A DNA stretch of 64,000 nt from positions 744,001-808,000 of the forward strand of contig NZ_CP047950.1 in the NCBI RefSeq assembly GCF_014280075.1. The letters are read 5' to 3'. The translations under genes were made by a program, and so were the position numbers. Below the pieces are notes generated by a model. It did not search any database and had not been told where the DNA came from. It saw only the letters and a program-made list of their open reading frames with translations. The stretch comes from Synechococcus sp. A15-62. GTDB lineage: Bacteria; Cyanobacteriota; Cyanobacteriia; PCC-6307; Cyanobiaceae. Below, in pieces: positions 1-15,890 of this stretch. How positions within the stretch are numbered: position 1 is the first letter of the stretch; each line of letters starts with the position of its first letter.

Positions 1-1107
1 GTGGATGAGATGCATGTTGATGGCTTCCGATTCGATGAAGGCTCTGTGTTGAGTCGTGGCGAAGACGGTTCTCCTTTGGAGCATCCTCCAGTGATTTGGG
101 CGATTGAGCTCGACGATATTCTTGGTAAGAGCAAGGTGATTGCTGAAGCTTGGGATGCTGCAGGTCTGTACCAAATTGGCTATTTCCCAGGAGCACGGTG
201 GGCTGAGTGGAACGGTAAATACAGAGATTGCATCCGTCGTTTCATCAAAGGTGATGCGGGCATTATCAGCGAGGTGGCTTCACGTATTACGGGCAGTGCA
301 GATCTCTATCAGTGGCACCACCACGAGCCTGTGAACAGCGTGAATTTCGTCACGGCACATGATGGATTTACTCTTTATGACCTAACTGCGTACAACGAAA
401 AGCACAACTGGGCGAATGGGGAAGGAAATAACGATGGTATTGATGAAAATTTAAGTTGGAACTGTGGTTTCGAAGGTGAGACTGATGACCAGTGGATTAA
501 CGACATGAGAAAAAGACAAGTTAAAAATTTCGCCACAATTCATATGCTTTCTATGGGTGTACCCATGATCGTGGGTGGTGATGAATACATGCGGAGTCAG
601 GGTGGCAACAACAACACTTACTGCCATGATAACGAGATCAATTGGTATGACTGGGATCAGATCGCATCAAAGGAAAGTCAGGAGATGATTCGTTTCTGGT
701 CTCTTCTGATCGAGAAAAGAAAAATGTATATTGACCACTTCCGTGGCCGTTATTTCAAGGGCAAATCAAATAAATTTGGACTAAACGATATTGCTTGGCA
801 CGGTACGCAGTTGAACAATCCTGGCTGGGATAACAGTGATGCTCGATGCCTTGCTATGACCCTTGGAGACACGGCTGAGGATACAGATCAGACTCACAAT
901 GTTCACATTATGTTCAATATGTTCTGGGATGCTGTCGAATTTGAGATTCCTCAAATTCCAGGATTAGCCTGGTACCGAGCAATCGACACTGCTTTGCCTT
1001 CACCTCAGGACATCGAGTCTCCCGATCAACAGGTTGCTGTTCAAGGAAACAGCTATTTGGTGACCGGCCGCAGCATCGTGACGCTTGTCTCTCGAGCGTC
1101 AAATTGA
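1..1107 (+). CDS. glgX: Glycogen debranching enzyme (GlgX/isoamylase type), C-terminal part
   Basis: Partial gene that enters the window already open; the first GTG is an internal codon. Encodes the second half of a GH13 alpha-1,6-glucan debranching enzyme that removes branches during glycogen breakdown in the cytoplasm. Three GH13 catalytic blocks are visible: DGFRFDEG near residue 7 (nucleophile Asp in the family), IAEAWD near residue 47 (acid/base Glu) and FVTAHDGFT near residue 115 (transition-state Asp). GEGNNDGIDENLSWNCG is typical of the GlgX/TreX branch. The C-terminal beta domain runs to residue 368. It is followed after 51 bp by an epimerase-family gene on the same strand, possibly a carbohydrate metabolism unit. 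Family assignment is firm; the exact substrate preference is inferred. Confidence 0.93.
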   Translation: MDEMHVDGFRFDEGSVLSRGEDGSPLEHPPVIWAIELDDILGKSKVIAEAWDAAGLYQIGYFPGARWAEWNGKYRDCIRRFIKGDAGIISEVASRITGSADLYQWHHHEPVNSVNFVTAHDGFTLYDLTAYNEKHNWANGEGNNDGIDENLSWNCGFEGETDDQWINDMRKRQVKNFATIHMLSMGVPMIVGGDEYMRSQGGNNNTYCHDNEINWYDWDQIASKESQEMIRFWSLLIEKRKMYIDHFRGRYFKGKSNKFGLNDIAWHGTQLNNPGWDNSDARCLAMTLGDTAEDTDQTHNVHIMFNMFWDAVEFEIPQIPGLAWYRAIDTALPSPQDIESPDQQVAVQGNSYLVTGRSIVTLVSRASN

Positions 1108-1158
1108 CTTTTATTTAATCCTTACACATTCTCTAGAAACCTCACATTCAACCCAGTC

Positions 1159-3318
1159 ATGGCATCTTCCAATCAGCTTAATTTCCCTTTTTCTGACCTG
1201 GTCGCTGGTTACATTCGTAGCGTTTCATACCCCGATGTTTTCGACTGTAAAGGCGAGGTAGAACTCGAAACATCCGATGGAAGGATGTACACAGTGAAAA
1301 TTACTGATGCAGCATACGCTGAGCTGGTCAGGAATCTAGGTGAGCCATTCCAAATGGCTCCCGATCTTAGTCAGATCTTGGTTGAGGGCAGATTCATTCA
1401 CGTTTATGGCCTTTTCTATCCTGAATCAGACCGGTTGAAGTTTGAAGCCAAGCATATGTTGCTGTTTGGTCGAGGGAAGGATGACCTTAGATTTGAAAAC
1501 CAGAACTGGTGGATTCATCAGATTCAGCAATTGTTGAACTTCTATTTGGAAGCACAGTTCCAAGTGGTTGAAGGTGAATCCATTGACTTCAAAAAGTTCA
1601 GAACAGATCTCAGTGCGGAAGGTAAAAAGCAGGACGGTGTTCAAAATCTTGATACCATCTCACGCTTGATCTATGGCTTTGCGACGGCCTACATGATCAC
1701 CGGCGACGAGCGGGCTTTGGAGGCAGCCAAGAACGGAACTGAATATATGCAGCGCCATTTCAGGCACCAAAACAAGAGCGAAGGGATCTGCTACTGGTAC
1801 AGCCAAATTGACATCCAAGAGGATGGTAGCGTTCGCAAATACATGGGCTCCACTGCCGGTGGTGATGAAGGTGGTAATGCAATTCCGTGTTATGAACAAA
1901 TTTATGCTCTTGCTGGTCCAACCCAGACGTGGCGACTAATCGGTGGCGAAAGTATTAAGCAAGATATTGACGACACGATCTCATTCCTTAACCGCTACTA
2001 CAAAGATCATGGTCCATACGGTGGATACTATTCACACGTTGATCCTGTCACTTTTGATGCCAAGGCTGATTCTCTTGGTGTCAACAAGGCCAAGAAAAAT
2101 TGGAACTCCGTTGGCGACCACGCTCCGGCTTATCTCATCAACTTGTATTTAGCCACTGGTGATGAGAACTATGGAACGTTCCTTGAAGATACTTTCGACA
2201 CGATTTGTGAGCATTTCCCTGATTATGGCTACAGCCCCTTCATGAACGAGAAGTTCTACGAAGACTGGACCCATGACCTGAAGTGGGGGATTCACCAAGC
2301 AAGGTGCGTGGTCGGTCACAATCTAAAAGTTGCCTGGAACCTCACCAGGATGCATAGCTTGATGCCCAAGGAGAGCTACAAGACGTTCGCTCATCAGATT
2401 GCTGATGCGATTCCAGGCGCAGGTTGTGATAACCAGCGCGGTGGCTGGTACGACATGATGGAGCGTACCCTGAAGGATGGGGAAGAGCATTACCGTCGCG
2501 TCTGGCACGATAGAAAAGCCTGGTGGCAGCAGGAACAGGGGATTCTTGCTTACTACATCATGGCTGGTGTTTACAACGACAAACCTGAATACCTCCGCTA
2601 CGCAAGGGAAGGTTCTGCCTTCTACAACGGCTGGTTCCTCGATTACGACGCTGGTGGAATCTATTTCAACGTTCTTTCGAATGGTCAACCCTATTCATTG
2701 GGTGGAGAGCGTGGAAAGGGCAGTCACTCGATGGCTGGCTATCACTCCTTCGAACTCTGCTTCCTTGCAGCAATCTACTCAAACTTATTGGTGAACAAGG
2801 AACCGATGGATTTCTACTTCAAGCCGGATCCTCAGGCTTGGCCCGAAAACAAACTCCGTGTTGCTCCTGATCTACTACCTGCTGGTAGCGTAGAACTATC
2901 GGAAGTTTGGATTGATGACAAGTCTTACACAGATTTCGATCGAGCCAACTTGATTGTCAATCTGCCTGAATCGGATATGCCCTTAAAGGTTCGTGTCAGG
3001 ATTGAACCTGCAGGCTTGGGCTTTAGTGCTGATCTGATGACCTATGAAAATAGCATTGCTAACTTTGCATTGGACGGAGATCTGACCCGCTGCAAATTGC
3101 CACTTCTTAAGAAGGAAGTGGAGAAACTGAGCTGCCTGAAGGGCATGGTCCTCGATATGACCAATCTCAAGACTGTTGACGACACAGGCTGGAATTACCT
3201 GTTATTCACAAAGCAACAAAGAGGTGCTGATTTCAGCCTCTCACTCAAGGGTTTGAACGCAGAAATCGCACAGTCCCTAAAAGATGCAGAACTAGACGAA
3301 GAGTTTACAACTCTCTAA
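1159..3318 (+). CDS. N-acylglucosamine 2-epimerase family protein with extra N-terminal domain and STAS-like C-terminus
   Basis: 719 residues, much longer than ordinary AGE-family sugar epimerases (about 390-420). Residues 1-115 form an extra N-terminal domain that I do not recognise. Residues 116-550 look like an alpha/alpha-barrel AGE domain: GHNLKVAWNL near 386 matches the family GHxxExAW block, WWQQEQ near 455, and HSMAGYH near 523 contains likely catalytic histidines. Residues 600-715 resemble a STAS domain (VLDMTNLKTVDDTGW near 664, then a glycine before a helical end). AGE enzymes interconvert hexoses or their N-acyl forms at C2; the substrate here is unknown. ATG start at 1159. A strong terminator follows at 3353, so it probably ends a transcript beginning upstream with glgX. 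Confidence 0.8.
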   Translation: MASSNQLNFPFSDLVAGYIRSVSYPDVFDCKGEVELETSDGRMYTVKITDAAYAELVRNLGEPFQMAPDLSQILVEGRFIHVYGLFYPESDRLKFEAKHMLLFGRGKDDLRFENQNWWIHQIQQLLNFYLEAQFQVVEGESIDFKKFRTDLSAEGKKQDGVQNLDTISRLIYGFATAYMITGDERALEAAKNGTEYMQRHFRHQNKSEGICYWYSQIDIQEDGSVRKYMGSTAGGDEGGNAIPCYEQIYALAGPTQTWRLIGGESIKQDIDDTISFLNRYYKDHGPYGGYYSHVDPVTFDAKADSLGVNKAKKNWNSVGDHAPAYLINLYLATGDENYGTFLEDTFDTICEHFPDYGYSPFMNEKFYEDWTHDLKWGIHQARCVVGHNLKVAWNLTRMHSLMPKESYKTFAHQIADAIPGAGCDNQRGGWYDMMERTLKDGEEHYRRVWHDRKAWWQQEQGILAYYIMAGVYNDKPEYLRYAREGSAFYNGWFLDYDAGGIYFNVLSNGQPYSLGGERGKGSHSMAGYHSFELCFLAAIYSNLLVNKEPMDFYFKPDPQAWPENKLRVAPDLLPAGSVELSEVWIDDKSYTDFDRANLIVNLPESDMPLKVRVRIEPAGLGFSADLMTYENSIANFALDGDLTRCKLPLLKKEVEKLSCLKGMVLDMTNLKTVDDTGWNYLLFTKQQRGADFSLSLKGLNAEIAQSLKDAELDEEFTTL

Positions 3319-3352: not shown

Positions 3353-3383
3353 AAGAGGGCATGTTTATCATGCCCTCTTTTTT
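3353..3383 (+). terminator. Rho-independent terminator after the epimerase-like gene
   Basis: An 11-bp perfect stem (3353-3363 with 3369-3379), loop of 5 bases, ending in a run of six T. It lies 35 bp after the stop at 3318 and 12 bp before the next ATG at 3395, so the TPR/oxygenase gene needs read-through or a promoter overlapping the hairpin. Confidence 0.85.
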
Positions 3384-3394
3384 GTAACAAGACC

Positions 3395-4795
3395 ATGACA
3401 GCAAGCAATATCTCCAACAATAGAAAGGGTGTTGAGGCTGCCATGGCAGGTAACCATATTGAAGCAGAAAAATTTTTTCGGCAGGCAATAAAAGAGAATG
3501 AAACCGCTATTGAAGGGTGTATGAACCTTATCAGACTTCTACATATGCAAGGAAGACACGCTGAGACAATTAGTGCATTCAAAGAGCTTCAAATAAATGT
3601 TCAAATAGAAAAGATCCATCCACAAATTTTGTATATGGTCACTCAAAGTGCTTTGGATATTGGCGACCAGAAAATAGCAATCCAGAACCTCAGCGTACTA
3701 TCCCCACAGCATCCTGGAAATAGTGAGATCCAGTGCATGCTTTCTGAGGCATTCATCAAAAGTGGAAGACTAGTAGATTCCCAAAAATTACTAGAGAGAG
3801 TAATACAACTCAACCCAGAGGATCCCAGTATTGCCACACAACTAGCTATTACGGAAAGTGAGCTTGGGAATTACAACAAGGCGGAGAAAATACACAAGCA
3901 ACTTGTAGGCAAATTTGAGAATGCATTTTTAAGTCACTTTAACTATGGTCTTTTTTTGGCAAACATAGGCGAAACAAAAAGGGCATTAAGATGTTTCGAA
4001 CGGTGTAAGCAAATCGTTCCAAATGCACCAGAGGCACAAGAGCAAATCGAGAAGTTAATCCAAAATGAAAGCAACGGATTGACAGAGATCTATCAAGATA
4101 TCGAGAAAAAATATTGGGTTGAAGCTGAAAAAAAGCTTAGAAAAAATAAAGAGGTAATAGAGCCAATTCAGTTTTGGGCTGCAGTTAATGAGTTACCAAA
4201 AGAAAATCAGCAAAAACTAGGAAGTATTCAGGCTTTTGACGCAGAAATACAGATCAGAATAGTTGAACTCTATTCCGTCTCGGAAAAAGAAAAGTTTTTG
4301 GCTGAACTTGTCGATAACGTGAAGAATGCAGAAAGCTTGATTTGGAATCGAGCTGGCAAACCAACACGGCATGGACTACAAAGCCATGAAATATTGAATG
4401 GTAGTCAATCAACCGCCATTCAGGATTTATGTAGGCGTCTCAAGGAAGCCTCACTTGACTACATCAAAAACAAACCACTTCTGCAAAAAATTAGAAATCA
4501 AAAAAAGGGAAATAAAGAATTGAGTGGCTGGAGTGTGGTGTTGAAGAAAGGGGGACATCAAAAACGTCATATCCATCCAGAATCCATTGTGAGTGGAGTC
4601 GTCTACATACAACTTCCAAAAGAGAGCGCTAACGAGGAAAAAAAAGAAGGGAACCTAGTGTTCCCTTCAAATAATATGAAAATGGTCACCCCGAAAGAAG
4701 GTATGGCGGTAATATTCCCGAGCTATCTAGCCCATGAAACGGTACCAATTAATAGCAACGAAGAGCGAATCTGTATCGCTTTTAATTGGACATAA
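3395..4795 (+). CDS. TPR-repeat protein with C-terminal putative 2OG-Fe(II) oxygenase domain
   Basis: 466 residues. Residues 10-220 read as tandem helical TPR units (for example AAMAGNHIEAEKFFRQAI, then SGRLVDSQKLLERVIQLNP). Residues 325-466 match the putative 2OG-Fe(II) oxygenase family often found behind TPRs: HIHPESIVSGVVYIQLP with H392 and H394, then FPSYLAHETVP with distal H447 and R458 as probable cosubstrate ligand. The fold would hydroxylate an unknown target; TPRs suggest a protein or glycan partner. The gene is AT-rich and lysine-rich compared with the core part of the window, suggesting transfer. It is convergent with, and only 2 bp from, the next gene on the other strand. Function beyond the fold is not known. 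Confidence 0.75.
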   Translation: MTASNISNNRKGVEAAMAGNHIEAEKFFRQAIKENETAIEGCMNLIRLLHMQGRHAETISAFKELQINVQIEKIHPQILYMVTQSALDIGDQKIAIQNLSVLSPQHPGNSEIQCMLSEAFIKSGRLVDSQKLLERVIQLNPEDPSIATQLAITESELGNYNKAEKIHKQLVGKFENAFLSHFNYGLFLANIGETKRALRCFERCKQIVPNAPEAQEQIEKLIQNESNGLTEIYQDIEKKYWVEAEKKLRKNKEVIEPIQFWAAVNELPKENQQKLGSIQAFDAEIQIRIVELYSVSEKEKFLAELVDNVKNAESLIWNRAGKPTRHGLQSHEILNGSQSTAIQDLCRRLKEASLDYIKNKPLLQKIRNQKKGNKELSGWSVVLKKGGHQKRHIHPESIVSGVVYIQLPKESANEEKKEGNLVFPSNNMKMVTPKEGMAVIFPSYLAHETVPINSNEERICIAFNWT

Positions 4796-4797
4796 GT

Positions 4798-6441
4798 TCA
4801 GCTATATGGTCGTACGGAATATCCACCATGCACGGCATCTACAAAGAAACGATAGTTACCTGTGTGAGTCGGTGTGAACTCCAGGGCAGGAGGATTGCCG
4901 TGAGATGTCAGCTGTCCAAAGCGCTTGAGAGAGCGTCTTGAAGGATCTGCCGCATCAGGGTTACTACCACTGAAATCAAATCCATAACAGTCGAGTTCAT
5001 AATCAGCATAAACAAGTGCCCAGGGTGAGCGATTGGCGACGTATTTATAGTTGTAAGTTTTTCCAGCAGTTAAGGGAACGACACGATCAAAACAGCCGGG
5101 TTGAAGAGGATTCATCAAGTTCAAAGCTGACTCTGGATTCCAAGCTTCGAGAGTTTCTGTATCGTCAAACGATCCGACAAGAGACATCGAATCAAGAGAG
5201 GAAACAGGAAGAAGTTGACCAGGTCCGGCAACCACACGAATCGAGAGCCGATCTGTCTCAGGGTCAAAGACAAATTCGAGGTCACTATTAACATCAAGCT
5301 TGAAGCAGATATTTAATTCATGCGGCTTCCCATGCCAAGTCACACATTCGAGTGAAGAGGAAGGTATGCCGTCATTGATATCAATCCAACAGCCTAGCCC
5401 CATCGTGTCAAGAAAGAGCTCAGAACTGATCCCAACATTTACGACATGAAAGCCAGACTTAACAGACGTTTTGAGTGAAAACTTGTCAGAGTTTGCAATT
5501 GGCTTCATCAAGCGTTCAGGATCCGTTGGATCAAACTGGTTGGCTTCAAAGATACTCCCAAGAAGTTGAAAAGAAATTCGGTCGTTCAAAACATCCGGCG
5601 TTTTAAGTGAGGGATTGGCGGGAGATGGAATTACGCTGAAGTGAGGTGAATTTGAGGTCGGATCGTGAAGATTAAAACGATACTCGCCGTCTTCAAATAC
5701 CTGAATCGTGCAACCTGAATGCATGGAAGAACCGTGACTGCTACCAAAACCAGTCCCTTGAACAAGCGACGATTTGCCATCATTTAAGGCAGAAAAACCA
5801 TAATCTTCATCGTGGTTGGCAGAGATCAGAAACTGATAAATACCATCAGCACGAAAATCGATACCACCAGTCTTCAATAAGGGGACATCGATAGTCCATA
5901 GCTGATCAGACTGCTTGACAAACTCACGTCCTTTGAGACGAGGGTCAAATTTGTCAAACATATTGAGACTATCCCATGGAAAACCATTCAATTGGAAGGA
6001 ATCAAATGAATCAACATGGTGAAAAGTATTATGCCCAGCATTGGGCTTACAAGTTAACTGCATTGACTCAGAGTCAAACTCAAAGACGATGAGCTGAGAG
6101 ACATCAACGCGAAAATTGATGTTGTAGGTTGATCTCCCATCACGAGTTTCGATCAGATCGAAAACCCCAGACTGCTTCTTGGATAATGATGTTTTGAGTT
6201 GGCGTTTAGGAGAATGATTGATTACAAGACGGAGACTATAAAGGCCATTAACATCTGGAAGTTGTGGACCATCGACAGCATGACAAATACGCCAGGTGGT
6301 TTCCGACACCCTGACCATATCAAGAGCTGTTTCAAACGGATTCCATCGCCAACGACGTCGATGGATTGTGCCAAGCAGGCTGACTGATTCAATCGTCTCA
6401 GAGTCAATATGTTGTTGAGTGAAGCGTGGCAACAAAAACAT
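4798..6441 (-). CDS. Protein of four tandem carbohydrate-binding-like modules, function unknown
   Basis: 547 residues with no signal peptide and no catalytic domain that I can find. Four diverged repeats are visible at about residues 18-135, 144-270, 287-405 and 414-545. Each begins with a strand like SxxLxGS followed by W/FxP and a Leu-Met pair, and continues with beta strands ending in an aromatic-rich YxFxxD-type strand. The last module (SMSLVGSF, WNPESALNLM, AGKTYNYKYVANRS) resembles X25/CBM48-like alpha-glucan-binding modules of pullulanases. Position close to a glycogen debranching gene makes an alpha-glucan-binding role plausible, but this is inference. ATG start at 6441; an intergenic region of 250 bp separates it from the divergent DJ-1 gene. 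Confidence 0.6.
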   Translation of the reverse strand: MFLLPRFTQQHIDSETIESVSLLGTIHRRRWRWNPFETALDMVRVSETTWRICHAVDGPQLPDVNGLYSLRLVINHSPKRQLKTSLSKKQSGVFDLIETRDGRSTYNINFRVDVSQLIVFEFDSESMQLTCKPNAGHNTFHHVDSFDSFQLNGFPWDSLNMFDKFDPRLKGREFVKQSDQLWTIDVPLLKTGGIDFRADGIYQFLISANHDEDYGFSALNDGKSSLVQGTGFGSSHGSSMHSGCTIQVFEDGEYRFNLHDPTSNSPHFSVIPSPANPSLKTPDVLNDRISFQLLGSIFEANQFDPTDPERLMKPIANSDKFSLKTSVKSGFHVVNVGISSELFLDTMGLGCWIDINDGIPSSSLECVTWHGKPHELNICFKLDVNSDLEFVFDPETDRLSIRVVAGPGQLLPVSSLDSMSLVGSFDDTETLEAWNPESALNLMNPLQPGCFDRVVPLTAGKTYNYKYVANRSPWALVYADYELDCYGFDFSGSNPDAADPSRRSLKRFGQLTSHGNPPALEFTPTHTGNYRFFVDAVHGGYSVRPYS

Positions 6442-6691: not shown

Positions 6692-7549
6692 ATGGCAAAA
6701 AGAATTCTGGTCGTCCTGTCTGAGTGGGGCTACTGGGGCGAAGAGCTGATTGGCCCCCTTGATGTGCTGACGAAAGCTGGTTATCAGCTTGATTTCATGA
6801 CTTCGTTTGGCAGGAAGCCGCCGGCGTTGCCCCCTAGCATGGAAGAAGGATATCTTGATCCACCGCTAAACAAGGTTGTTACCGACGCACACTATGCGAA
6901 GCGGACAACCGAGGTACATGAATCAAATCTTCTCGATAATCCAATTAATTTGTCTGAGAAGATTTCGTTGATGCCTTATTTCAACGGACTAAATTTTGGA
7001 TTAGAACTAGCAGCATTTCATGAAAGAAGAGAGGAATTCTGGAAAGAATTCGTTGATCCATACGATGCGCTGCTGCTCCCTGGAGGTAGCGGACCTATGG
7101 CAGACATGGTTAACAACGAAAGGCTGCATAACCTAATTCTTGGATATGTTGATCGTGACAAGCTGATTGCAGCTGAGTGCTATTGCGTCACGTGTCTGGC
7201 ATTTGCCAGGGACTGGACTGATAGAAAGAGCATTATTTGGGGCAAGCATGTCACTGGACACGCCAGGGAGTACGACTACAAAGAAAACACTGGCTTTGCA
7301 CAAATGTACGGCTTTGATGGTGAACCGATGAACACTACGGCTAACTTCGGGCCTCCGTTCTACCCATTGGAATATATCCTTCGTGATGCCACTGGCCCTC
7401 ATGGCAAATATCACGGTGGTGTCGGGAAGAATCTTTCAACGATTTTGGATTACCCCTTCCTTACGGGTCGTTCCACACAGGACTCCGCGTTGGTTGGAGA
7501 CCTGGTGCGGAAGGTGCTGGAAGACGGTCTTCGCCGCTACGGCTGGTAA
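6692..7549 (+). CDS. DJ-1/PfpI (Hsp31-like) family protein
   Basis: 285 residues from the ATG at 6692 (a TTG six bases upstream is possible). Class I glutamine-amidotransferase-like fold of the DJ-1/PfpI superfamily, whose members act as glyoxalase III, deglycase, chaperone or protease. The nucleophile elbow is LIAAECYCVTC with the expected Cys at 163; two further Cys at 165 and 168 sit beside it. GEELIGPLDVL near residue 16 holds the expected acidic partner, and DALLLPGGSGPM near 125 is the conserved loop. It precedes the ThDP decarboxylase-like gene on the same strand, with a weak hairpin between. Biochemical activity cannot be chosen from sequence alone. Confidence 0.82.
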   Translation: MAKRILVVLSEWGYWGEELIGPLDVLTKAGYQLDFMTSFGRKPPALPPSMEEGYLDPPLNKVVTDAHYAKRTTEVHESNLLDNPINLSEKISLMPYFNGLNFGLELAAFHERREEFWKEFVDPYDALLLPGGSGPMADMVNNERLHNLILGYVDRDKLIAAECYCVTCLAFARDWTDRKSIIWGKHVTGHAREYDYKENTGFAQMYGFDGEPMNTTANFGPPFYPLEYILRDATGPHGKYHGGVGKNLSTILDYPFLTGRSTQDSALVGDLVRKVLEDGLRRYGW

Positions 7550-7564
7550 AGCAAACAACTAAAA

Positions 7565-7589
7565 GGGCGCCTTAGTAGGCGCCTCGTTC
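7565..7589 (+). terminator. Hairpin after the DJ-1 gene, weak terminator or processing site
   Basis: GGCGCCT (7566-7572) pairs with AGGCGCC (7577-7583) around a 4-base loop; the downstream tract CGTTCTTT is only partly T-rich. It may attenuate rather than stop transcription into the ThDP-enzyme gene. Confidence 0.5.
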
Positions 7590-7611
7590 TTTACTCACAT
7601 CTCGAGAAATT

Positions 7612-9333
7612 ATGAAAGGACATGAGGCGATCCTGAGGCAGTTTCTTGCCAACGACCTGGACCATATGTTCGGGAACCCAGGGACTGTGGAACAGGGTTT
7701 TCTGGATGCTTTGGCAGATGTGCCAGAGATGAAGTACATCCTTACCCTTCAAGAATCAATTGCAGTGCTGTGTGCAGACGGCTACGCGAGGGCACGGTTG
7801 AAGCCAGCATTGGTACAGATCCACAGTTCACCGGGACTCGGCAATGCAATCGGTAATCTTTATCAAGCGATGCGAGGACAGGCTCCACTGGTTGTCATCG
7901 GCGGAGATGCGGGAATCAAGTATCAGGCCATGGATGCACAGATGGCAGCTGATCTTGTCGCCATGGCAGAGCCAGTAACCAAATGGTCTGCCATGGTTCA
8001 ACATCCGTCAAGCTTGCTGCGGATGGTGAGACGAGCTATCAAAATCGCCTCAACTCCTCCCTGTGGCCCTGTTTATCTCTGTCTACCTGAAGACATTCTG
8101 GATGCTGAGGTCACGGAAGAAATCTTCCCCGCCCATGTACCAAGCTTGGCGACGACGCCACGGGGTGATGATCTGGAGAAGTTGGCCTCAGCGATTGAGC
8201 AGGCCAGCAACCCAATCATCCTGGTAGGCGATGGAGTTGCTTGGACCGGCGGGGTCGACCGGGTGGTTGAGTTGGCGGAAACCATGGGGGCAAAAGTCTA
8301 TTCAGCCGACGGTGGTGAGATTAACTTTCCCGATGATCACCTACTTAACTACGGAAGTACAGGACACATGTTCGGAGATGCAAGTCTTCCGATCATGAGA
8401 GGTTGTGATTTCTGTATCACTCTCGGAGCCTACTTACTACCAGAAGTATTTCCCCATCTAGGTGATATCTTTGACCCGAAGGCAACGGTCATTCATGTGG
8501 ATACCGATGTCAATAATATCGCCAAAAATCATCGGGTCGACATCTCCTACGTTGCCCATCCACATACAGTGATCGAGGGATTGATACCCCTAGTAAAGCA
8601 GTTGCCACAGAGTTGGCACAATGCCGCTCAGGAGAGAAGAAAAAAGCTGGAAAGCGAGTCACCTGTGGTCAATAATGACGTCGATATCAATTATGAAGTT
8701 GTACCGAAACATGCAAGTGGAGAATATGACGGCAAAAAGTTATCAATGCGGTCGGGGTATTTCATCAAAACGCTCTCTGAAATGATTCCCGAAAATAGAA
8801 TTATTTTTGACGAGGCATTGACCAATTCACCACCTGTCAACAAATACCTGCCAGGGCGTGCACCCGGTGAACGAATGTTGACACGAGGTGGGTCATTGGG
8901 TACTGGATTCCCCGGAGCCATTGGTGCCAAGATTGCTCATCCTGATCGATGCGTTGTTGGCTTCTCTGGTGATGGAGGAAGCATGTACACCATCCAGTGC
9001 CTGTGGACAGCAGCACGTCACAACGTTGCAGCAAAATTTGTGGTCTGTCAAAACAGATCGTACAAACTTCTGCAGGCAAACATTAGCCAATTCTGGAAGG
9101 AGAGAGGCATTGAAGGTAGGGAGTTCCCCATTCCTTTTGATCTATCCAAGCCTGAAATCTGCTTCAACGAAATTGCAAATAGCTTTGGTGTTGCAGGAGA
9201 GCAAGTTGTTCGACCTGATCAAGTTAAAGATGCAATTACAAGAATGTTGTCTCATGATGGGCCGTATCTTATCAATCTTGTACTTGATGGCACCATTAGA
9301 CCCGACTTAATTGGAGTTAAGTGCGGCCAATAA
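7612..9333 (+). CDS. Thiamine-diphosphate-dependent enzyme, benzoylformate-decarboxylase-like
   Basis: 573 residues with the three-domain layout of 2-keto-acid decarboxylases and acetolactate synthases. FGNPGT near 20, LQES with the cofactor-activating Glu48, and IHSSPGLGNA near 84 follow benzoylformate decarboxylase closely (its active-site His is kept, its active-site Ser of FGNPGS is Thr here). The ThDP/metal motif begins at GDGGSMYTIQ near 452 and ends with CQN about 27 residues later. It probably decarboxylates or ligates a 2-oxo acid; the substrate is unknown. No FAD-associated acetolactate synthase features stand out and no small subunit gene is adjacent. It follows the DJ-1 gene and leads into the NTF2/VOC/MBL series. 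Confidence 0.83.
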   Translation: MKGHEAILRQFLANDLDHMFGNPGTVEQGFLDALADVPEMKYILTLQESIAVLCADGYARARLKPALVQIHSSPGLGNAIGNLYQAMRGQAPLVVIGGDAGIKYQAMDAQMAADLVAMAEPVTKWSAMVQHPSSLLRMVRRAIKIASTPPCGPVYLCLPEDILDAEVTEEIFPAHVPSLATTPRGDDLEKLASAIEQASNPIILVGDGVAWTGGVDRVVELAETMGAKVYSADGGEINFPDDHLLNYGSTGHMFGDASLPIMRGCDFCITLGAYLLPEVFPHLGDIFDPKATVIHVDTDVNNIAKNHRVDISYVAHPHTVIEGLIPLVKQLPQSWHNAAQERRKKLESESPVVNNDVDINYEVVPKHASGEYDGKKLSMRSGYFIKTLSEMIPENRIIFDEALTNSPPVNKYLPGRAPGERMLTRGGSLGTGFPGAIGAKIAHPDRCVVGFSGDGGSMYTIQCLWTAARHNVAAKFVVCQNRSYKLLQANISQFWKERGIEGREFPIPFDLSKPEICFNEIANSFGVAGEQVVRPDQVKDAITRMLSHDGPYLINLVLDGTIRPDLIGVKCGQ

Positions 9334-9423
9334 CCATGCATATTTCATTATTGCTTCTTAATTATTTCCCTTCCGGATAAGTTTATCCAATTTTACTTTC
9401 AAACACTCATTCTGGTTTTCAAA

Positions 9424-9849
9424 ATGTTCACTCATCCCGAAATTTGGTCCTTTGCATCGAATTGGTATCGTTATCTGGATGTTCATGCTCCCCTCGATAG
9501 TTTTAGGCCTCTTTTGACTGAGGACGTTCAGCTTGTTTTTCCAGAGGCTACAGTAACTGGCTTTGAAGGATACTCTACCTGGTACAACAAGGTTATTGAT
9601 ATATTTTTTGACGAACAACATACCCTAAAGATTGCAGACATAACCAGTCAATCTGACCAGGCTGCTGAGGTTCATGTTGTTGTTAATTGGCACGCAAGTA
9701 TCTGGAATGCACCTGATGCCCGTAGTACCCGTTTGATGATGGATGCTGATCAAACTTGGGAAGTAATGCGAAATTCTGTAGGTCAACCTGTCGTTTCTAA
9801 ATACATTGTTAACTATATGACATACGAGCCTGGCTCTTGTAAACTTTAA
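9424..9849 (+). CDS. NTF2-like (SnoaL-type) protein 1
   Basis: 141 residues, single-domain cone-shaped NTF2-like fold by pattern: an N-terminal helix with WYRYLD, then DSFRPLLTEDVQLVFP, GFEGYSTWYNKVID and a C-terminal beta sheet ending in SKYIVNYMTYEPG. Such folds serve as cyclases, isomerases, dehydratases or binding proteins. No catalytic residues can be assigned. First of a series of same-strand, AT-rich small genes; 90 bp separate it from the ThDP gene and 38 bp from the next NTF2-like gene. ATG start at 9424 follows a pyrimidine-rich stretch without an obvious ribosome binding site. Confidence 0.7.
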   Translation: MFTHPEIWSFASNWYRYLDVHAPLDSFRPLLTEDVQLVFPEATVTGFEGYSTWYNKVIDIFFDEQHTLKIADITSQSDQAAEVHVVVNWHASIWNAPDARSTRLMMDADQTWEVMRNSVGQPVVSKYIVNYMTYEPGSCKL

Positions 9850-9887
9850 TCAGTCACTTATTTTTTCACTTAGTTTGTATTTTTGCC

Positions 9888-10283
9888 ATGAAAAATGTCC
9901 CTCAAACCAAGCTTGGTAATCTTTACCGAGAGCACATCAGCTTGATTCTTAAAAAGGATATTGATGGTCTTCTTGCTCAGTATGCAGACGATGCATTGTT
10001 GATTTCAAGTTTTGAAAAATCACCTAAATATTTCCGTGGTAGTAAAGAACTTGAGATCCATTTTCAGGGAATTCTTGGTATTCAAGGCCTTGATACTGAA
10101 ATCGCATTCTGGGGTGAAACAGAAAATCCAACGACACTTATGATCGTTGAGGCTATAACGATGCAAACTCCAGGTGGTGAAGCAAAAATGCGCTTTGCCG
10201 ACAGCTGGGTTCTTAATGAAGAGGGTCGGATACAGATCCATTTCGCTGGTATGACTCAGTATCCTGATGGTTCAGTTGCTTGA
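9888..10283 (+). CDS. NTF2-like (SnoaL-type) protein 2
   Basis: 131 residues. Pattern LYREHISLILKKDIDGLLAQYADDALLIS at the start is the classic SnoaL-like opening (helix, short turn, then the first strand), followed by FRGSKELEIHFQGIL and a sheet ending in WVLNEEGRIQIHFAGMT. It is clearly paralogous in fold to the neighbours at 9424 and 10744 but well diverged. Its stop lies 7 bp before the likely start of the VOC gene, and the ribosome binding sequence GAGGAT for that gene begins inside the gap, indicating one transcript. Possible roles are isomerase, cyclase or small-molecule binding; none can be chosen. Confidence 0.72.
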   Translation: MKNVPQTKLGNLYREHISLILKKDIDGLLAQYADDALLISSFEKSPKYFRGSKELEIHFQGILGIQGLDTEIAFWGETENPTTLMIVEAITMQTPGGEAKMRFADSWVLNEEGRIQIHFAGMTQYPDGSVA

Positions 10284-10290
10284 GGATAAT

Positions 10291-10704
10291 ATGCTTCAAA
10301 TTATTTCCCAATTAGCTCTCACTTGTAGAGACCAGAAAGTTACAGAGGATTGGTACGTCAGAAATTTTGGTTTTCGTCGTGCTCGCGTCGCTACATTACC
10401 TGATGGTTCTCAAATTATATTTATCAAAATGGCTGATTCAAGTTTTTATCTAGAATTATTCGCCGCAGATAGCGAGAATCCGTTGCCTGATCCCATCAAT
10501 GATGGTCCAACATATCCGGCATTTAGGCATTTAGCTTTTAAGGTTGATGACGTTGACAAAAAACTCTCACAGATTAGTCCTTTGGACATCACACTTGGAC
10601 CACTAGACTTCGATGCCTTTATCCCAGGGTGGAGAACAGCTTGGTTGAAAGACCCTGATGGTCGAATTATTGAAGTTAGTCAAGGCTTCGTGGATGAATA
10701 TTGA
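10291..10704 (+). CDS. VOC-superfamily (glyoxalase I fold) protein
   Basis: 137 residues from ATG 10291, which has GAGGAT just upstream; an ATG at 10267 inside the previous gene is less likely. Two beta-alpha-beta-beta-beta modules are visible. The four positions that bind metal in this fold are Gln7 (SQLAL), Glu55 (YLELF), His80 (FRHLAF) and Glu128 (RIIEV). A Gln/Glu/His/Glu set is the one known for human-type glyoxalase I, though many other VOC enzymes vary here. The protein could be an isomerase, lyase, dioxygenase or epoxide-opening enzyme. It sits between NTF2-like genes in the same orientation and is AT-rich like them. Confidence 0.8.
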   Translation: MLQIISQLALTCRDQKVTEDWYVRNFGFRRARVATLPDGSQIIFIKMADSSFYLELFAADSENPLPDPINDGPTYPAFRHLAFKVDDVDKKLSQISPLDITLGPLDFDAFIPGWRTAWLKDPDGRIIEVSQGFVDEY

Positions 10705-10743
10705 GATCGTTCTTTTTAATTAAAACACCTCACTATCTATTTC

Positions 10744-11172
10744 ATGTCAGTTTATTCATCACCACAAGAAGAAGCTCAATTCAAATCTAGAACCGTTGAG
10801 CAACTCTGGAACCATCATAATAAATCTTTGGCTGCTCGAGATATCGATGAGTTCATAAAAGATTTTAGTCCATCTTGCATTTTTATCAACAATCCCAAGA
10901 GTGGTCATGCTCAAGGTACTTTTCTTGGTGCTGAAGGTGTCGCTAAATGGTGCAAAGAATTTTTTGACTTATTCCAAGATATTTCAGAGTTTAAAGTTCC
11001 TTTTGGTGCTCACATCGATTCCCCCCATGAATCCGACGGTGTTGTGATGATTAGCTGGGAGATTTTCAATTCTTCTTTCAATGTCAGGAACGGGGTTGAT
11101 ACATTTATTGTTAAACAAGGTAGGTTTGAAATTGTAACTGTTGTATACGATGTTCAATCTGCTCTGAATTGA
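10744..11172 (+). CDS. NTF2-like (SnoaL-type) protein 3
   Basis: 142 residues with the opening pattern VEQLWNHHNKSLAARDIDEF followed by DFSPSCIFINNP, LGAEGVAKWCKEFFDLF and strands ending in VSW- and VRNGVDTFIVKQGRFEIVTVVYD-like segments, typical of NTF2-like nuclear-transport-factor/SnoaL proteins. It starts 39 bp after the VOC gene and ends 32 bp before the two-domain NTF2-like gene. No signal peptide, so a cytoplasmic role is expected. Enzymatic activity is unassigned. Confidence 0.7.
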   Translation: MSVYSSPQEEAQFKSRTVEQLWNHHNKSLAARDIDEFIKDFSPSCIFINNPKSGHAQGTFLGAEGVAKWCKEFFDLFQDISEFKVPFGAHIDSPHESDGVVMISWEIFNSSFNVRNGVDTFIVKQGRFEIVTVVYDVQSALN

Positions 11173-11204
11173 ATTTGTACATCTAACAACCTTTTCTTTT
11201 TATC

Positions 11205-12068
11205 ATGTCTGCTTTTCCTGTGTTTAATGATGTCAAGCTTGATTCCAATAATCAGCAAACTCAAGCTTCATACTACAAATCAGCTGCCACGGGTGATTTT
11301 GAGGGTACTTTAGATACTCTTGCTGATGATGTGTTTTTTGAGATTTCAGGTGATCGTTCTACCCTTCCTTTTGCTGGTAGGTGGGAGGGTAAAGAAAATG
11401 TCAAAACATTATTTTCTACTTTTGGTTCCGCGTTTAGGCTCTTAAATCTTACCGAAACTGACATTGTTGAATCTGCTTCGGTTTCTTATTCTTTCAATGA
11501 TGAGTCTTTTTTTGTTTATCAAACTGGCATCTATTACCGTGTTCCTGTACTTCATATCATGTCTTTCAACTCAGATAACAAAATATCTTCGTTAGTTAAT
11601 ATCCATGATACAAGTTCAGCTTATCAAGCCTTTACATCTTCACCTTCATCTCTTATCCCAATATCCCCAAAAATTGCTCCACCATCTGACTCATCTGTCC
11701 TGGATGATGCGTATTTGGAGGATATTTCTACTTCTTTGGTTAAGGCCATTTTTTCCGGTGAGACCGCTTCTTCTCTCTTTGCTGAGAATCTCACTTTTTA
11801 TATTCCTGGTTTGCAAGATAGGGACAAGATCGCTGGTGTCTGGACTCTTGATGAACTTAAATTAGTTTACCCAGATCGCATTAAAAAGTTAAACAAGTTT
11901 AGTTCAAGTTCTTCAATTCACTCTATTACTAAGTCTGAAAATCGTATTGCTATTCATGGTTCTGGGGGCTTCTCCAGTCAAAATCCCTGGGTAATTTTGG
12001 CTTCTGTCGATTCTAATAAATTGTGCAGTCAGTCTTCTTTATATTTTGATTTTCAGTTTTCACTTTGA
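11205..12068 (+). CDS. Two-domain (tandem) NTF2-like protein
   Basis: 287 residues that appear to hold two NTF2-like domains. The first (about 15-140) has QASYYKSAATGDFEGTLDTLADDVFFEISG, then GRWEGKENVKTLFSTFG and ISSLVNIHDTSSAYQ. After a Pro/Ser-rich linker (about 145-165) a second helix-strand opening appears (SLVKAIFSGETASSLFAENLTFYIPG), followed by DRDKIAGVWTLDEL and strands to the end. The second domain is more degraded. G+C is very low: the 60 bases from 11461 contain only 18 G or C. It lies 17 bp upstream of the MBL-fold gene, so the two are probably cotranscribed. Confidence 0.62.
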   Translation: MSAFPVFNDVKLDSNNQQTQASYYKSAATGDFEGTLDTLADDVFFEISGDRSTLPFAGRWEGKENVKTLFSTFGSAFRLLNLTETDIVESASVSYSFNDESFFVYQTGIYYRVPVLHIMSFNSDNKISSLVNIHDTSSAYQAFTSSPSSLIPISPKIAPPSDSSVLDDAYLEDISTSLVKAIFSGETASSLFAENLTFYIPGLQDRDKIAGVWTLDELKLVYPDRIKKLNKFSSSSSIHSITKSENRIAIHGSGGFSSQNPWVILASVDSNKLCSQSSLYFDFQFSL

Positions 12069-12085
12069 CCCTTTTTTTCTAAGTC

Positions 12086-12931
12086 ATGTCTGTTTCAACA
12101 CAACGTTTCGTTGATCCTTTTCTTGTTATTCACCGATTTGAATCTCCTCATATTGATGGTGGTGAGGGCGTTAATAGCTATATTATCGAAACAAGTAATT
12201 GTTTAATTATTCTTGATTTACCTCTCCTTGATTCTGTTGCTAAAAATATAAGGGAATATGCTGATCAACTCCAGAAGCCTATCAAAAAAGTATTTATTAC
12301 TCATGCTCATCCGGATCATTGGTTTGGTCTTTATCGATTTAAAGATTTTGAAAGCTTTTCTACCCCGAAGACTATTGATGAAATAAAAAATTTAGGATCC
12401 CAATACCTTGATTTTAAAAGATCTTCTCTTGGTGGCGATGATGCTGACTTGCCTCCTGAAGTGATTGTGCCGAATAACTCTGTTGAGACTTTTGATGAAA
12501 CTATTGATGGAGTTAGGTTTTCGTGGAAACTTATTTCTAATGTTGAATTCCTCGAAGGTCTCTATTTGATTTTTGATCAACATAAAATATTTATGGCTGG
12601 TGATTTAGTCTATAATGGAGTACACCACTATGTCGGACAACGTGACGAATCGGGTTCTCTATGTGTCACCAACTGGATAGATTTTCTATCATCACTTGAA
12701 GCTTCCTCTTTTAACTATGTTTACGCTGGACACGGTCCTAATGCTGGGTTTGAGCTAATAGGATTCTCTGTTGATTACCTTAAATGTGTTCGAGATATTA
12801 TTACTGACCCGAAAAAATCACGTGTGGATTATCGAGATTTTGTCAACACACGATTTCCCGATCATAAAGTTTCTGAAATGATAGACATATCTGACTTTTT
12901 TGTTTATGGTCCTCCCGACTCAAATTCCTGA
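12086..12931 (+). CDS. Metallo-beta-lactamase-fold hydrolase
   Basis: 281 residues. The zinc motif HAHPDH is present (H73, H75, D77, H78), the bridging Asp is in FMAGDLVYNG near 172 and the last His in VYAGHGPNAG near 212. At the third motif, where most family members have a His before the GD strand (PGH-like), this protein reads ISNVEFLEGLYLIF, so a Glu seems to occupy that place, as in some other MBL branches. Likely substrates include esters, thioesters or lactones, but none can be chosen. Last gene of the AT-rich same-strand series; a 178-bp gap with porin promoter signals follows. Confidence 0.8.
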   Translation: MSVSTQRFVDPFLVIHRFESPHIDGGEGVNSYIIETSNCLIILDLPLLDSVAKNIREYADQLQKPIKKVFITHAHPDHWFGLYRFKDFESFSTPKTIDEIKNLGSQYLDFKRSSLGGDDADLPPEVIVPNNSVETFDETIDGVRFSWKLISNVEFLEGLYLIFDQHKIFMAGDLVYNGVHHYVGQRDESGSLCVTNWIDFLSSLEASSFNYVYAGHGPNAGFELIGFSVDYLKCVRDIITDPKKSRVDYRDFVNTRFPDHKVSEMIDISDFFVYGPPDSNS

Positions 12932-13082
12932 TTCATAACTAATTTCTTTCATAGCATTGAATCATCGCTTTGAGGTGCTGCTTTTTTGTATCGCATACTT
13001 CTTGTAGTATTTATTTATTTTAAATTTGACTTTATTTAATGCTCCTTTCCTGACTTTAGGCTTTGTACTGCTCTTGTTGCAT

Positions 13083-13088
13083 TATAAT
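13083..13088 (+). promoter_or_regulatory. Candidate -10 element for the porin gene
   Basis: A perfect TATAAT lies 22 bp before the porin ATG at 13110. A matching -35 is not clear (TTGTAC at 13063 leaves a 14-base spacer), so this is a tentative sigma-70-type promoter with a short leader. Confidence 0.4.
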
Positions 13089-13109
13089 TTTTTCAACTAA
13101 TTCTCTATT

Positions 13110-14687
13110 ATGTACAAACTGCCTATCCTTTGTTCGCTTCTGTTGTTACCACCTGCTGCCATGGCAGAGGATCGAACCTTAGATATTTCTCCCTCTATAA
13201 GTTCTTACGTCCAGCAAGATCAAATTTCCTCAGTATCACAATTCTCTGATGTATTGCCTTCCGACTGGGCATATCAGGCATTGTCCAATTTGGTTGAACA
13301 GTATGGATGTGTTGCTGGCTACCCCAATGGAATATTTCGTTCTTCTCGTGCAATTACTCGCTACGAGGCGGCGGCCCTCTTGAATGCTTGTCTCGATAGA
13401 GTTTCTGAATTAACAGATGAATTGCGTCGTCTTCTGAAGGAATTTGAAGTAGAGTTATCTACCTTGAAGGGTCGTGTTGATGGTTTAGAGGCTCGAGTTG
13501 GTGAGCTTGAAGCTACCCAATTTTCAACAACTACTAAACTTTCCGGTACAGCTGCATTTTTATTTGGAGGAACAAAATACCTTGGTTCTGGTGCTCATAA
13601 TGTAAGTTCAGGAAAGAGAAATTCTCAGCTTCCTAATTATGGTGCTGGGCCGACAGATGGTTTACATTTTGTTTACGATCTTCGTCTCGACTTGAATACA
13701 AGTTTTACAGGCAAGGATCTTTTGAAAACACGTCTTGAAGCTGGAAATATGAATAGCAGCAGTTTTGGATTGGGTACAGCTACTCCTTTGTCCTATTATT
13801 CATGGATTGCGCCCTTAGGCGGAAATGATAATGAAGTCTCTATTTCTCGGTTGTGGTACAACTTTCCTTTAGGTGACTCTTTCCGTTTTACCATTGGTCC
13901 TCGTGTCCGCCAGGATGAACTTCTTGCAACATGGCCTGTTCGTTATCCTTCAGAAATACCTCTTTTCGGTATACCTTGGTATGCTGGGAATCCTGGAGTC
14001 TATAATTTAAATACCGGTCCGGGTGCTGGTATTACTTATAATGCCAAATTAAATGATACAAAGTTTAGTGCCGCAGCTATCTATGTTGCAGGTTCTGGTC
14101 AATCTAGTTCTCCTACCACCGGTGGTTTGGGCACTGAATCTTCGAAGGCCACATCTACTTTTCAGGCATCTTTCTTCGATGATGAGTGGAACTTTACCCT
14201 TGCGTATAACTATACTCAGGCTGGGGTATATCCAGGAATGGGTACTCCCTATTTTACGCAGAACCTAAATAATCCAATGCACTCCTGGGCCGTTTCTGGT
14301 TTCTATGATTTCAATATTAATAATAAATATCTTCCAACATTCAATCTTGGTGCTGGTATGAACCATTTTGAAGATGATGATTATGGTCGCCTATCATCAG
14401 CTTCATGGTACTCAGCTTTCATGTGGAAAGATTTGATTTCTGATGGTCAAGATTTTGGTATATCTTTTGGTCAGCCCACTTTTGTGACTGACGTCAAGAA
14501 TGGTACGCCCCGCGATGGTGGCTTTTTTGTCGAGACATATTATCGTTTTTCTGTAACCGACAATATCTCCGTTACACCTACGCTTCTTTGGCTTTCTAGG
14601 CCTTATGGTGAGCAAACTAAAGCAATTACTGGCAAGGATACCTTCCGAACTCTCGCTTTTATGCTCAAGACAAACTTCTATTTTTGA
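13110..14687 (+). CDS. SLH-domain outer-membrane porin (SomA/SomB-like, iron-uptake porin family)
   Basis: 525 residues. Signal peptide of about 19 residues ending AMA before EDRT. An S-layer-homology domain follows (QFSDVLPSDWAYQALSNL, then VAGYPNGIFR and ITRYEAAALLNACLDR, residues 44-100), which in cyanobacteria anchors to the peptidoglycan-linked polymer. A coiled coil rich in Leu/Glu covers about 100-135. The rest is an OprB-like beta barrel of alternating aromatic strands ending in the terminal Phe of LKTNFYF. This is the standard layout of the major cyanobacterial porins. It is AT-rich like the preceding genes but follows its own promoter and ends at a strong terminator. Confidence 0.9.
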   Translation: MYKLPILCSLLLLPPAAMAEDRTLDISPSISSYVQQDQISSVSQFSDVLPSDWAYQALSNLVEQYGCVAGYPNGIFRSSRAITRYEAAALLNACLDRVSELTDELRRLLKEFEVELSTLKGRVDGLEARVGELEATQFSTTTKLSGTAAFLFGGTKYLGSGAHNVSSGKRNSQLPNYGAGPTDGLHFVYDLRLDLNTSFTGKDLLKTRLEAGNMNSSSFGLGTATPLSYYSWIAPLGGNDNEVSISRLWYNFPLGDSFRFTIGPRVRQDELLATWPVRYPSEIPLFGIPWYAGNPGVYNLNTGPGAGITYNAKLNDTKFSAAAIYVAGSGQSSSPTTGGLGTESSKATSTFQASFFDDEWNFTLAYNYTQAGVYPGMGTPYFTQNLNNPMHSWAVSGFYDFNINNKYLPTFNLGAGMNHFEDDDYGRLSSASWYSAFMWKDLISDGQDFGISFGQPTFVTDVKNGTPRDGGFFVETYYRFSVTDNISVTPTLLWLSRPYGEQTKAITGKDTFRTLAFMLKTNFYF

Positions 14688-14735: not shown

Positions 14736-14766
14736 AAGCATTATTGATATTCAATAATGCTTTTTT
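14736..14766 (+). terminator. Rho-independent terminator of the porin gene
   Basis: A 12-bp perfect stem (14736-14747 with 14751-14762) around a 3-base loop, ending in six T (14761-14766). It lies about 50 bp after the porin stop. The gene on the other strand ends at 14775, so the hairpin may serve both directions. Confidence 0.88.
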
Positions 14767-14774
14767 ATTTTTGG

Positions 14775-15890
14775 TTATCTAAATTCTTTTGTATTGAGAG
14801 GAGGTTGATACCTTTTGTTGCCGTGCTCTCTTTGATAACTTGTGATTCCGTCAGGGTGCCATACGCCAGGGGAGTTAATTTCTTGGTCTTTGCTTACAAT
14901 TCTAAGTTCTGATCTCACATCGGCAATCTGTATGTTTTTATATTCAAAGTAATCGACCCCATACATCACATCTCGATTACATATTCTCCCTCGACGTATT
15001 GCATCAGCCACTCTTTCTGGCATTCCAGGTATCTCAAGGTGTCCTTTATCTACATTTAGAACTCCTCCACCCCAGGACTCAAGTCGGCCTGTTTCGAACA
15101 AACTCACAATGGCAACCAGGAAGGAAAATCCTTTGATATCAGGGATTGCTGAGCCAATGAAGGAGAACACTTCCAGTTCTCCCTCAATAGTGGTGTTGTA
15201 ATCACAAAGTAAGTGAATCCAATCGTGTTGGGCAATTGATGGGTTGACACTCCCTTGTTGCCCTGTGAAAACGAATCCACGGCCTTGGTAGTACTCCCAA
15301 ATGTTTCGACCTAATGATCCTTTCGGGCAATGCTCAAGCGCTAACCACTGATTTAATAATTCTGGATCATCCTCATCAAGCTCAAAAGGATCGGTCAATG
15401 GTTTGTGCACATGCATCAGTTTTCCGCCCTGCTTCACTAAATCTGGATTGCCCATGTATCCCTTGCGTGCCAGGTCTGAAGCTGCTATCCCGTAAGCACC
15501 TTGACTGTATTCGCGCGCAATTTCAATAAATTCGTCCTCAACACCCAGTGCATCTGCGGCATGTTCTAGGGTTTCTGTTGCTTTTAAAGGCAATGGGTCA
15601 AGAATTAGCTCGGCAAGTGTGAACAGTTGAAACAGCCTGTGGCGAATGGGTTCGCTGACGTCTTTGAACTCTTCTCGTAGACCATCTAGGGAATTGTGAT
15701 CAACTGCTGCTTCTTTTACATCCAGATCCAAGCCCAATAAGGCTGTTCCGATGGCATGCACAAGATGAATTTGCGTCAGGCCTGAGGTGCGTTGTTCGTT
15801 TGCATGCTGCGTAAGGCTATAAAGACACCGCAAAGCAATGTCACGCTGACACGTACTCAGGGTTTTGAAATCTGGATCGAGATGAATCAC
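14775..15890 (-). CDS. TerB-like / Coq4-like two-domain protein, function unknown
   Basis: 371 residues from a GTG start. The N-terminal half (about 12-140) is all-helical and acidic and resembles TerB/tellurite-resistance-like domains (IHLVHAIGTALLGLDLDVKE, then HRLFQLFTLAELILDP). The C-terminal half carries HDWIH (H222, D223, H226) and, exactly eleven residues later, E238. This HDxxH-x11-E pattern is the metal motif of Coq4, an accessory protein of ubiquinone biosynthesis in other organisms; cyanobacteria make plastoquinone instead. A role in quinone or lipid chemistry is only inference. Stand-alone gene, convergent with the porin. Confidence 0.6.
   Translation of the reverse strand: MIHLDPDFKTLSTCQRDIALRCLYSLTQHANEQRTSGLTQIHLVHAIGTALLGLDLDVKEAAVDHNSLDGLREEFKDVSEPIRHRLFQLFTLAELILDPLPLKATETLEHAADALGVEDEFIEIAREYSQGAYGIAASDLARKGYMGNPDLVKQGGKLMHVHKPLTDPFELDEDDPELLNQWLALEHCPKGSLGRNIWEYYQGRGFVFTGQQGSVNPSIAQHDWIHLLCDYNTTIEGELEVFSFIGSAIPDIKGFSFLVAIVSLFETGRLESWGGGVLNVDKGHLEIPGMPERVADAIRRGRICNRDVMYGVDYFEYKNIQIADVRSELRIVSKDQEINSPGVWHPDGITSYQREHGNKRYQPPLNTKEFR

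Follow-up and report, generated by a model that had tools for sequence, protein, structure and literature searches.

A set of DJ-1-like, ThDP-dependent, NTF2-like and VOC genes in Synechococcus sp. A15-62 is associated with an icfG-type glycogen module, and this association is well supported. The strongest clue lies in the GlgX and AGE-STAS genes that flank the set; these were overlooked in the preliminary description of the locus, and they recur with the set across phyla. We propose that the genes form an accessory enzyme cassette on this module, which would carry out oxo-acid/carbonyl chemistry on a glucan-derived sugar; we regard this reading as plausible, just short of probable. Recurrence beside glycogen-breakdown genes in at least six phyla suggests an undescribed processing of stored sugar and not a chance cluster. 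Our searches of the open-access literature, which leave out most subscription journals, found no paper describing the combined cluster.

The window, i.e., the whole 64,000-nucleotide stretch that was analysed, sits in a 2.29 Mb genome. Eight co-directional ORFs on the + strand, all intact, span 6692-12931 (Table 1), and the short gaps described earlier are borne out by their coordinates (7-90 bp; in order 62, 90, 38, 7, 39, 32 and 17 bp). The DJ-1 gene starts at ATG 6692, and the VOC gene most likely at ATG 10291, which matches its relatives. The block had also been described as AT-rich, which is correct in that its GC content is 36-49%, compared with about 60-65% beyond 16 kb, but this property is not specific to the block because the whole 1-16 kb region is likewise AT-rich.

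Table 1. Genes and terminator-like sites of the locus (positions in the window)
Feature	Coordinates	Strand	Support
GlgX-type glycogen debranching isoamylase, C-terminal part (gene begins left of the window)	1..1107	+	homology to locus L007
AGE (N-acylglucosamine 2-epimerase-like) with weak C-terminal STAS-like tail	1159..3318	+	Pfam GlcNAc_2-epim E 1.6e-9
Terminator-like hairpin, strong, after AGE	3353..3379	+	
TPR + 2OG-Fe(II) oxygenase protein, picocyanobacterial neighbour	3395..4795	+	Pfam 2OG-FeII_Oxy_5 E 1.7e-23
Terminator-like hairpin, strong, within TPR gene	4646-4668	-	
Starch-binding-module-like protein	4798..6441	-	weak X25/CBM20 matches; in 16 ThDP loci
DJ-1/ThiJ-like protein	6692..7549	+	PF17124 E 5.5e-22
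GC-rich hairpin, weak T tail, between DJ-1 and ThDP	7565..7584	+	
ThDP-dependent 2-oxo-acid enzyme, benzoylformate decarboxylase/acetolactate synthase-like	7612..9333	+	three Pfam TPP domains
N1, NTF2/SnoaL-like	9424..9849	+	Pfam SnoaL_4 E 1.5e-4 (moderate support)
N2, KSI-fold protein	9888..10283	+	NTF2/SnoaL Pfam E 4.8e-5 (moderate) and AlphaFold model
VOC/glyoxalase-I-like metalloprotein	10291..10704	+	PF00903 E 7.1e-9
N3, weak SnoaL-like	10744..11172	+	Pfam E 0.015 (marginal)
N4, NTF2-like domain and second domain	11205..12068	+	domain 1 Pfam E 5.9e-5 (moderate)
MBL-fold hydrolase	12086..12931	+	PF00753 E 1.5e-11
SLH-OprB porin, recurrent neighbour	13110..14687	+	7 loci
Terminator-like hairpin after porin	14736..14762	+	

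The treatment of 6692-12931 as a natural unit did not survive comparison, as the conserved core ends at VOC and the associated genes start at GlgX/AGE (1-3318). We therefore reject the view that a single operon of eight genes is the natural unit, since N3, N4 and MBL are missing beside the core in two loci (L007 and L009) and GlgX/AGE are part of the set. No terminator-like site with a clear T-tract was found on the + strand in 9334-13110. AGE and the genes downstream of it need not be one transcript because of the terminator-like hairpin after AGE. The GlgX part in the window is 79% identical to the full-length homologue of L007, which passes TIGR02100 (691.8 vs 640.9 bits), and the AGE tail matches Pfam STAS weakly (E 0.0075, 21.9 bits vs a cut-off of 22.6). 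On the other side, a 371-aa protein (14775-15890, - strand) with no Pfam or NCBIfam match flanks the locus, and its relatives lie near the locus in L007 and L119.

The ThDP gene is present in 4 of 34 genomes of the genus, and a scan of GTDB genomes yielded 47 loci. Scattering of the genes in relatives, which had been named as an argument against a single pathway, was not seen for the core: DJ-1, ThDP, N1, N2 and VOC (6692-10704) occur in identical order in ten further loci from Synechococcus, Prochlorococcus (single cells included) and Cyanobium. The same order is retained in G015 and G021, where N3, N4 and MBL are missing, and a Nostoc locus (L115) has the same set plus an additional NTF2 gene that separates N1 from N2. 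DJ-1 and ThDP are no more than 822 bp apart in 40 of 41 measured loci. Four MAG contigs with bin labels of Opitutales, Gammaproteobacteria, Deltaproteobacteria and proteobacterium (L023, L024, L025 and L030) carry ThDP genes 77-93% identical to that of the window, and these are probably picocyanobacterial contigs in wrong bins.

Among 50 counted loci with both DJ-1 and ThDP, a few of which are duplicate extracts from one genome, AGE is found in 30, GlgX in 23 and PfpI in 17. Of the 50, 35 have one or more of these three genes, as do 19 of the 24 with complete flanks. The remaining 15 have none of them, some because of contig ends, and five loci (L032, L036, L043, L045 and L053) lack all three despite full flanks. 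AGE and GlgX are frequently present without ThDP. Loci combining DJ-1/ThDP with AGE, GlgX or PfpI belong to Cyanobacteria, Pseudomonadota, Planctomycetota, Bacteroidota and Actinomycetota, and also to Deinococcota, where the neighbourhood was taken from annotation because the genes were missed by ORF calling. The same neighbourhood lies on annotated plasmids of Nostoc, Gemmobacter, Runella, Deinococcus and Streptomyces, some of them with separate STAS, phosphatase (SpoIIE) or HATPase genes, or with glycogen synthesis genes. Across 386 cyanobacterial genomes, where ThDP occurs in 11, N2 in 9 and AGE in 36, the overlaps are 8/9 for ThDP and N2, 10/11 for ThDP and AGE, and 9/9 for N2 and AGE, with hypergeometric p values (which ignore shared ancestry) of 1.3e-13, 1.5e-10 and 2e-10, respectively. 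In 6 of the 10 genomes having both, ThDP and AGE are no more than about 30 kb apart, as we read the coordinates.

Pfam backs the earlier fold assignments of the DJ-1/ThiJ-like, ThDP, VOC and MBL proteins, but only three of the five NTF2 domains then claimed are solid, as N3 is marginal and Pfam gives no match for the second N4 domain. In the DJ-1-like protein, C165 and H192 of the Glu-Cys-His set are present in 49/49 aligned sequences and E20 in 48/49 (numbered from the longer 6686 start), and we take H192 to correspond to H126 of DJ-1. The VOC protein carries the (H/Q)-E-H-E ligand pattern of glyoxalase I (E63 and E136 in 21/21, H88 in 20/21, and Gln or His at position 15, numbered from the longer 10267 start), presumably matching the ligands of the human and E. 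coli enzymes. The MBL protein has HxHxDH (H73, H75, D77 and H78), D173 and H216, with an invariant Glu (E154) near the expected site of the third metal His. In its model (pLDDT 82.9) the MBL fold is a generic one; Foldseek puts lactamases first, but at identities of 11-20%, and we rejected a beta-lactamase assignment, the generic fold alone being supported. MBL relatives occur in other ThDP clusters, among them that of G002, whose MBL is 35% identical to that of the window.

These features bear on reactive-carbonyl handling, one of the two ideas put forward in the preliminary description. As an alternative to the glycogen cassette, DJ-1, VOC and MBL would be glyoxalase III-, I- and II-like enzymes clearing the dicarbonyls of fast sugar use, while ThDP would remove oxo acids. 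The glyoxalase I-type ligand set of VOC, the intact Glu-Cys-His of DJ-1, the glycogen-breakdown neighbourhood and the recurrence of a second DJ-1/PfpI gene all agree with it. Yet all scores against the NCBIfam glyoxalase models stay below the cut-offs: 16.7 vs 120 and 20.0 vs 165 bits for glyoxalase I, 14.3 vs 200.8 bits for glyoxalase II and 23.8 vs 131.25 bits for glyoxalase III (DJ-1/HchA). In addition, the MBL protein has its invariant Glu and is found in few loci only, and detoxification offers no explanation for N2 with its high conservation, or for the GMC oxidoreductases, the EthD proteins and the ThDP enzyme. We consider it unlikely.

The NTF2-like proteins and the variable partners are relevant to the other idea, small-molecule tailoring. 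N1 has a profile match to a putative scytalone dehydratase (3ef8). N2 is 63-92% identical over 16 loci and conserved far beyond ThDP at comparable distances; its AlphaFold model (pLDDT 91.7) has a ketosteroid isomerase as best fold match (TM about 0.7), and it also resembles the epoxide hydrolase/cyclases SalBIII and MonBI. N3 has no relative among the other ThDP loci, and kin of N4 domain 1 adjoin ThDP in Oscillatoria loci L036, L043 and L044 (E 2.5e-12 to 6.9e-14). Partner sets of DJ-1/ThDP are swapped between strains, being NTF2-like, VOC and MBL, or EthD/GMC/ankyrin. In G002, for example, DJ-1-ThDP is followed by NmrA, SnoaL, EthD, NTF2-ankyrin, SnoaL, GMC oxidoreductase, NTF2, a second DJ-1 and MBL. 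Similarly, G024 and G006 retain GlgX-AGE-TPR with other partners (EthD, VOC and multicopper oxidase; PfpI and one further ORF), which leads us to speak of swappable cassettes. The multicopper oxidase near GlgX-AGE-TPR of G024 (L118:14350-17769) is a 1139-aa protein with FG-GAP repeats, located where other strains have DJ-1/ThDP. Some ThDP clusters contain paired Nif11-type leader peptides between EthD and GMC, or beside EthD (L111:16528-17188; L040 and L046), with no obvious RiPP enzyme nearby.

A specialised-metabolite pathway would have ThDP making an acyloin that is tailored by the KSI-fold and VOC proteins, glycogen being the carbon source or a mere genomic neighbour. Related loci indeed bring GMC oxidoreductases, EthD, several SnoaL 'ester cyclases', Nif11 peptides and alpha/beta hydrolases, N2 is similar to KSI, SalBIII and MonBI, and the exchange of partner sets resembles that in biosynthetic clusters. 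On the other hand, no PKS, NRPS or terpene synthase scaffold-builder is labelled in the loci, and the glycogen genes are the more constant partners, so that such a pathway appears quite unlikely to us. Neither idea of the preliminary description is shown by these data, although each draws some support from them, tailoring from the GMC, EthD, SnoaL and Nif11 partners and carbonyl handling from the VOC ligands and the DJ-1 triad.

The histories of DJ-1 and ThDP conflict in L050, L051, L054 and L064 (74-75% vs 53-54% identity), and this disagreement indicates that the parts were exchanged separately. A genomic-island grab-bag of unrelated genes, joined solely by a shared integration hotspot, would fit this exchange, the AT-rich, strain-variable region and the lack of N3 relatives in other loci, but it is already disfavoured and very improbable, as the same partners recur, their order and strand conserved, in at least six phyla, both on chromosomes and on plasmids. 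A chance neighbourhood was rejected because of the recurrence across phyla. A phage origin was also rejected, as viral contigs contained no relative of ThDP or N2 and PHROGs only a generic ThDP family. A scytonemin (ScyA) pathway seems unlikely, no other scytonemin gene having been recognised.

For the accessory cassette on the glycogen module, the reaction, chemistry and product that we infer are as follows. GlgX would act on glycogen to release malto-oligosaccharides; the AGE protein would isomerise or epimerise the sugar end. The ThDP enzyme may then decarboxylate or ligate an oxidised, 2-oxo-acid or alpha-dicarbonyl sugar derivative, and reactive carbonyl intermediates might be isomerised, dehydrated or hydrolysed by DJ-1, VOC, the KSI-fold N1/N2 and MBL. 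The product could be a sugar-derived protective small molecule, or merely a safe carbon outlet. Expression is possibly coupled to carbon status, as the module of relatives includes STAS/HATPase/SpoIIE partner-switch genes. A broader version, in which a cross-phylum modular pathway would convert glycogen-derived sugar via 2-oxo-acid/carbonyl intermediates to a small molecule, with interchangeable tailoring cassettes and icfG-type partner-switch control, seems to us doubtful. Overall, the recurrence of such a cassette on the same glycogen genes, both in ocean picocyanobacteria and in five further phyla, gives the icfG genes a testable metabolic context, and points to unrecognised stored-glucan chemistry in abundant marine phototrophs.

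Comparison with known enzymes reveals both similarities and differences. The window ThDP protein has all three domains of benzoylformate decarboxylase (BFD)/acetolactate synthase, and its E48 and H71 match E47 and H70 of BFD. However, its family has Val in 43/44 sequences at the position matching BFD H281, and the protein falls far short of the BFD equivalog cut-off (296.7 vs 493 bits). The N2 model shares the fold of ketosteroid isomerase, whereas the position of the catalytic Asp (Asp40 in what we take to be the standard numbering) is an invariant Ser in all rows. VOC, MBL and DJ-1 share the folds of glyoxalases I, II and III, including glyoxalase I-type ligands and the DJ-1 Glu-Cys-His, but none passes a family cut-off, and in MBL an invariant Glu lies close to the third metal position. 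We know of no case in which glyoxalases I, II and III were shown as one set with ThDP and glycogen genes.

Links between the icfG operon and the regulation of carbon and glucose date back to the 1990s, but to our knowledge the functions of several of its genes are unsettled. In Synechocystis the operon (slr1852-slr1862) is tied to carbon/glucose metabolism and repressed by salt, and its core is AGE-STAS-GlgX-STAS (PMC12329169, PMC8670252). In another cyanobacterium (L117), NTF2, a 189-aa ORF, EthD-SnoaL, SDR, DUF4432 and PfpI are followed by AGE, STAS, GlgX, STAS, GAF-SpoIIE, HATPase and amylase, a gene order that agrees with the make-up of the operon as compared by published description. The second STAS, the SpoIIE phosphatase and the HATPase are absent from the window cluster. 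Elsewhere the source genome keeps one SpoIIE, one HATPase_c_2 and one small STAS ORF, so partner-switch regulation is possible in this organism. Like the Synechocystis operon, the window has AGE and GlgX adjacent to each other; unlike the operon, it has its STAS-like part fused to AGE and adds DJ-1, ThDP, N1, N2 and VOC.
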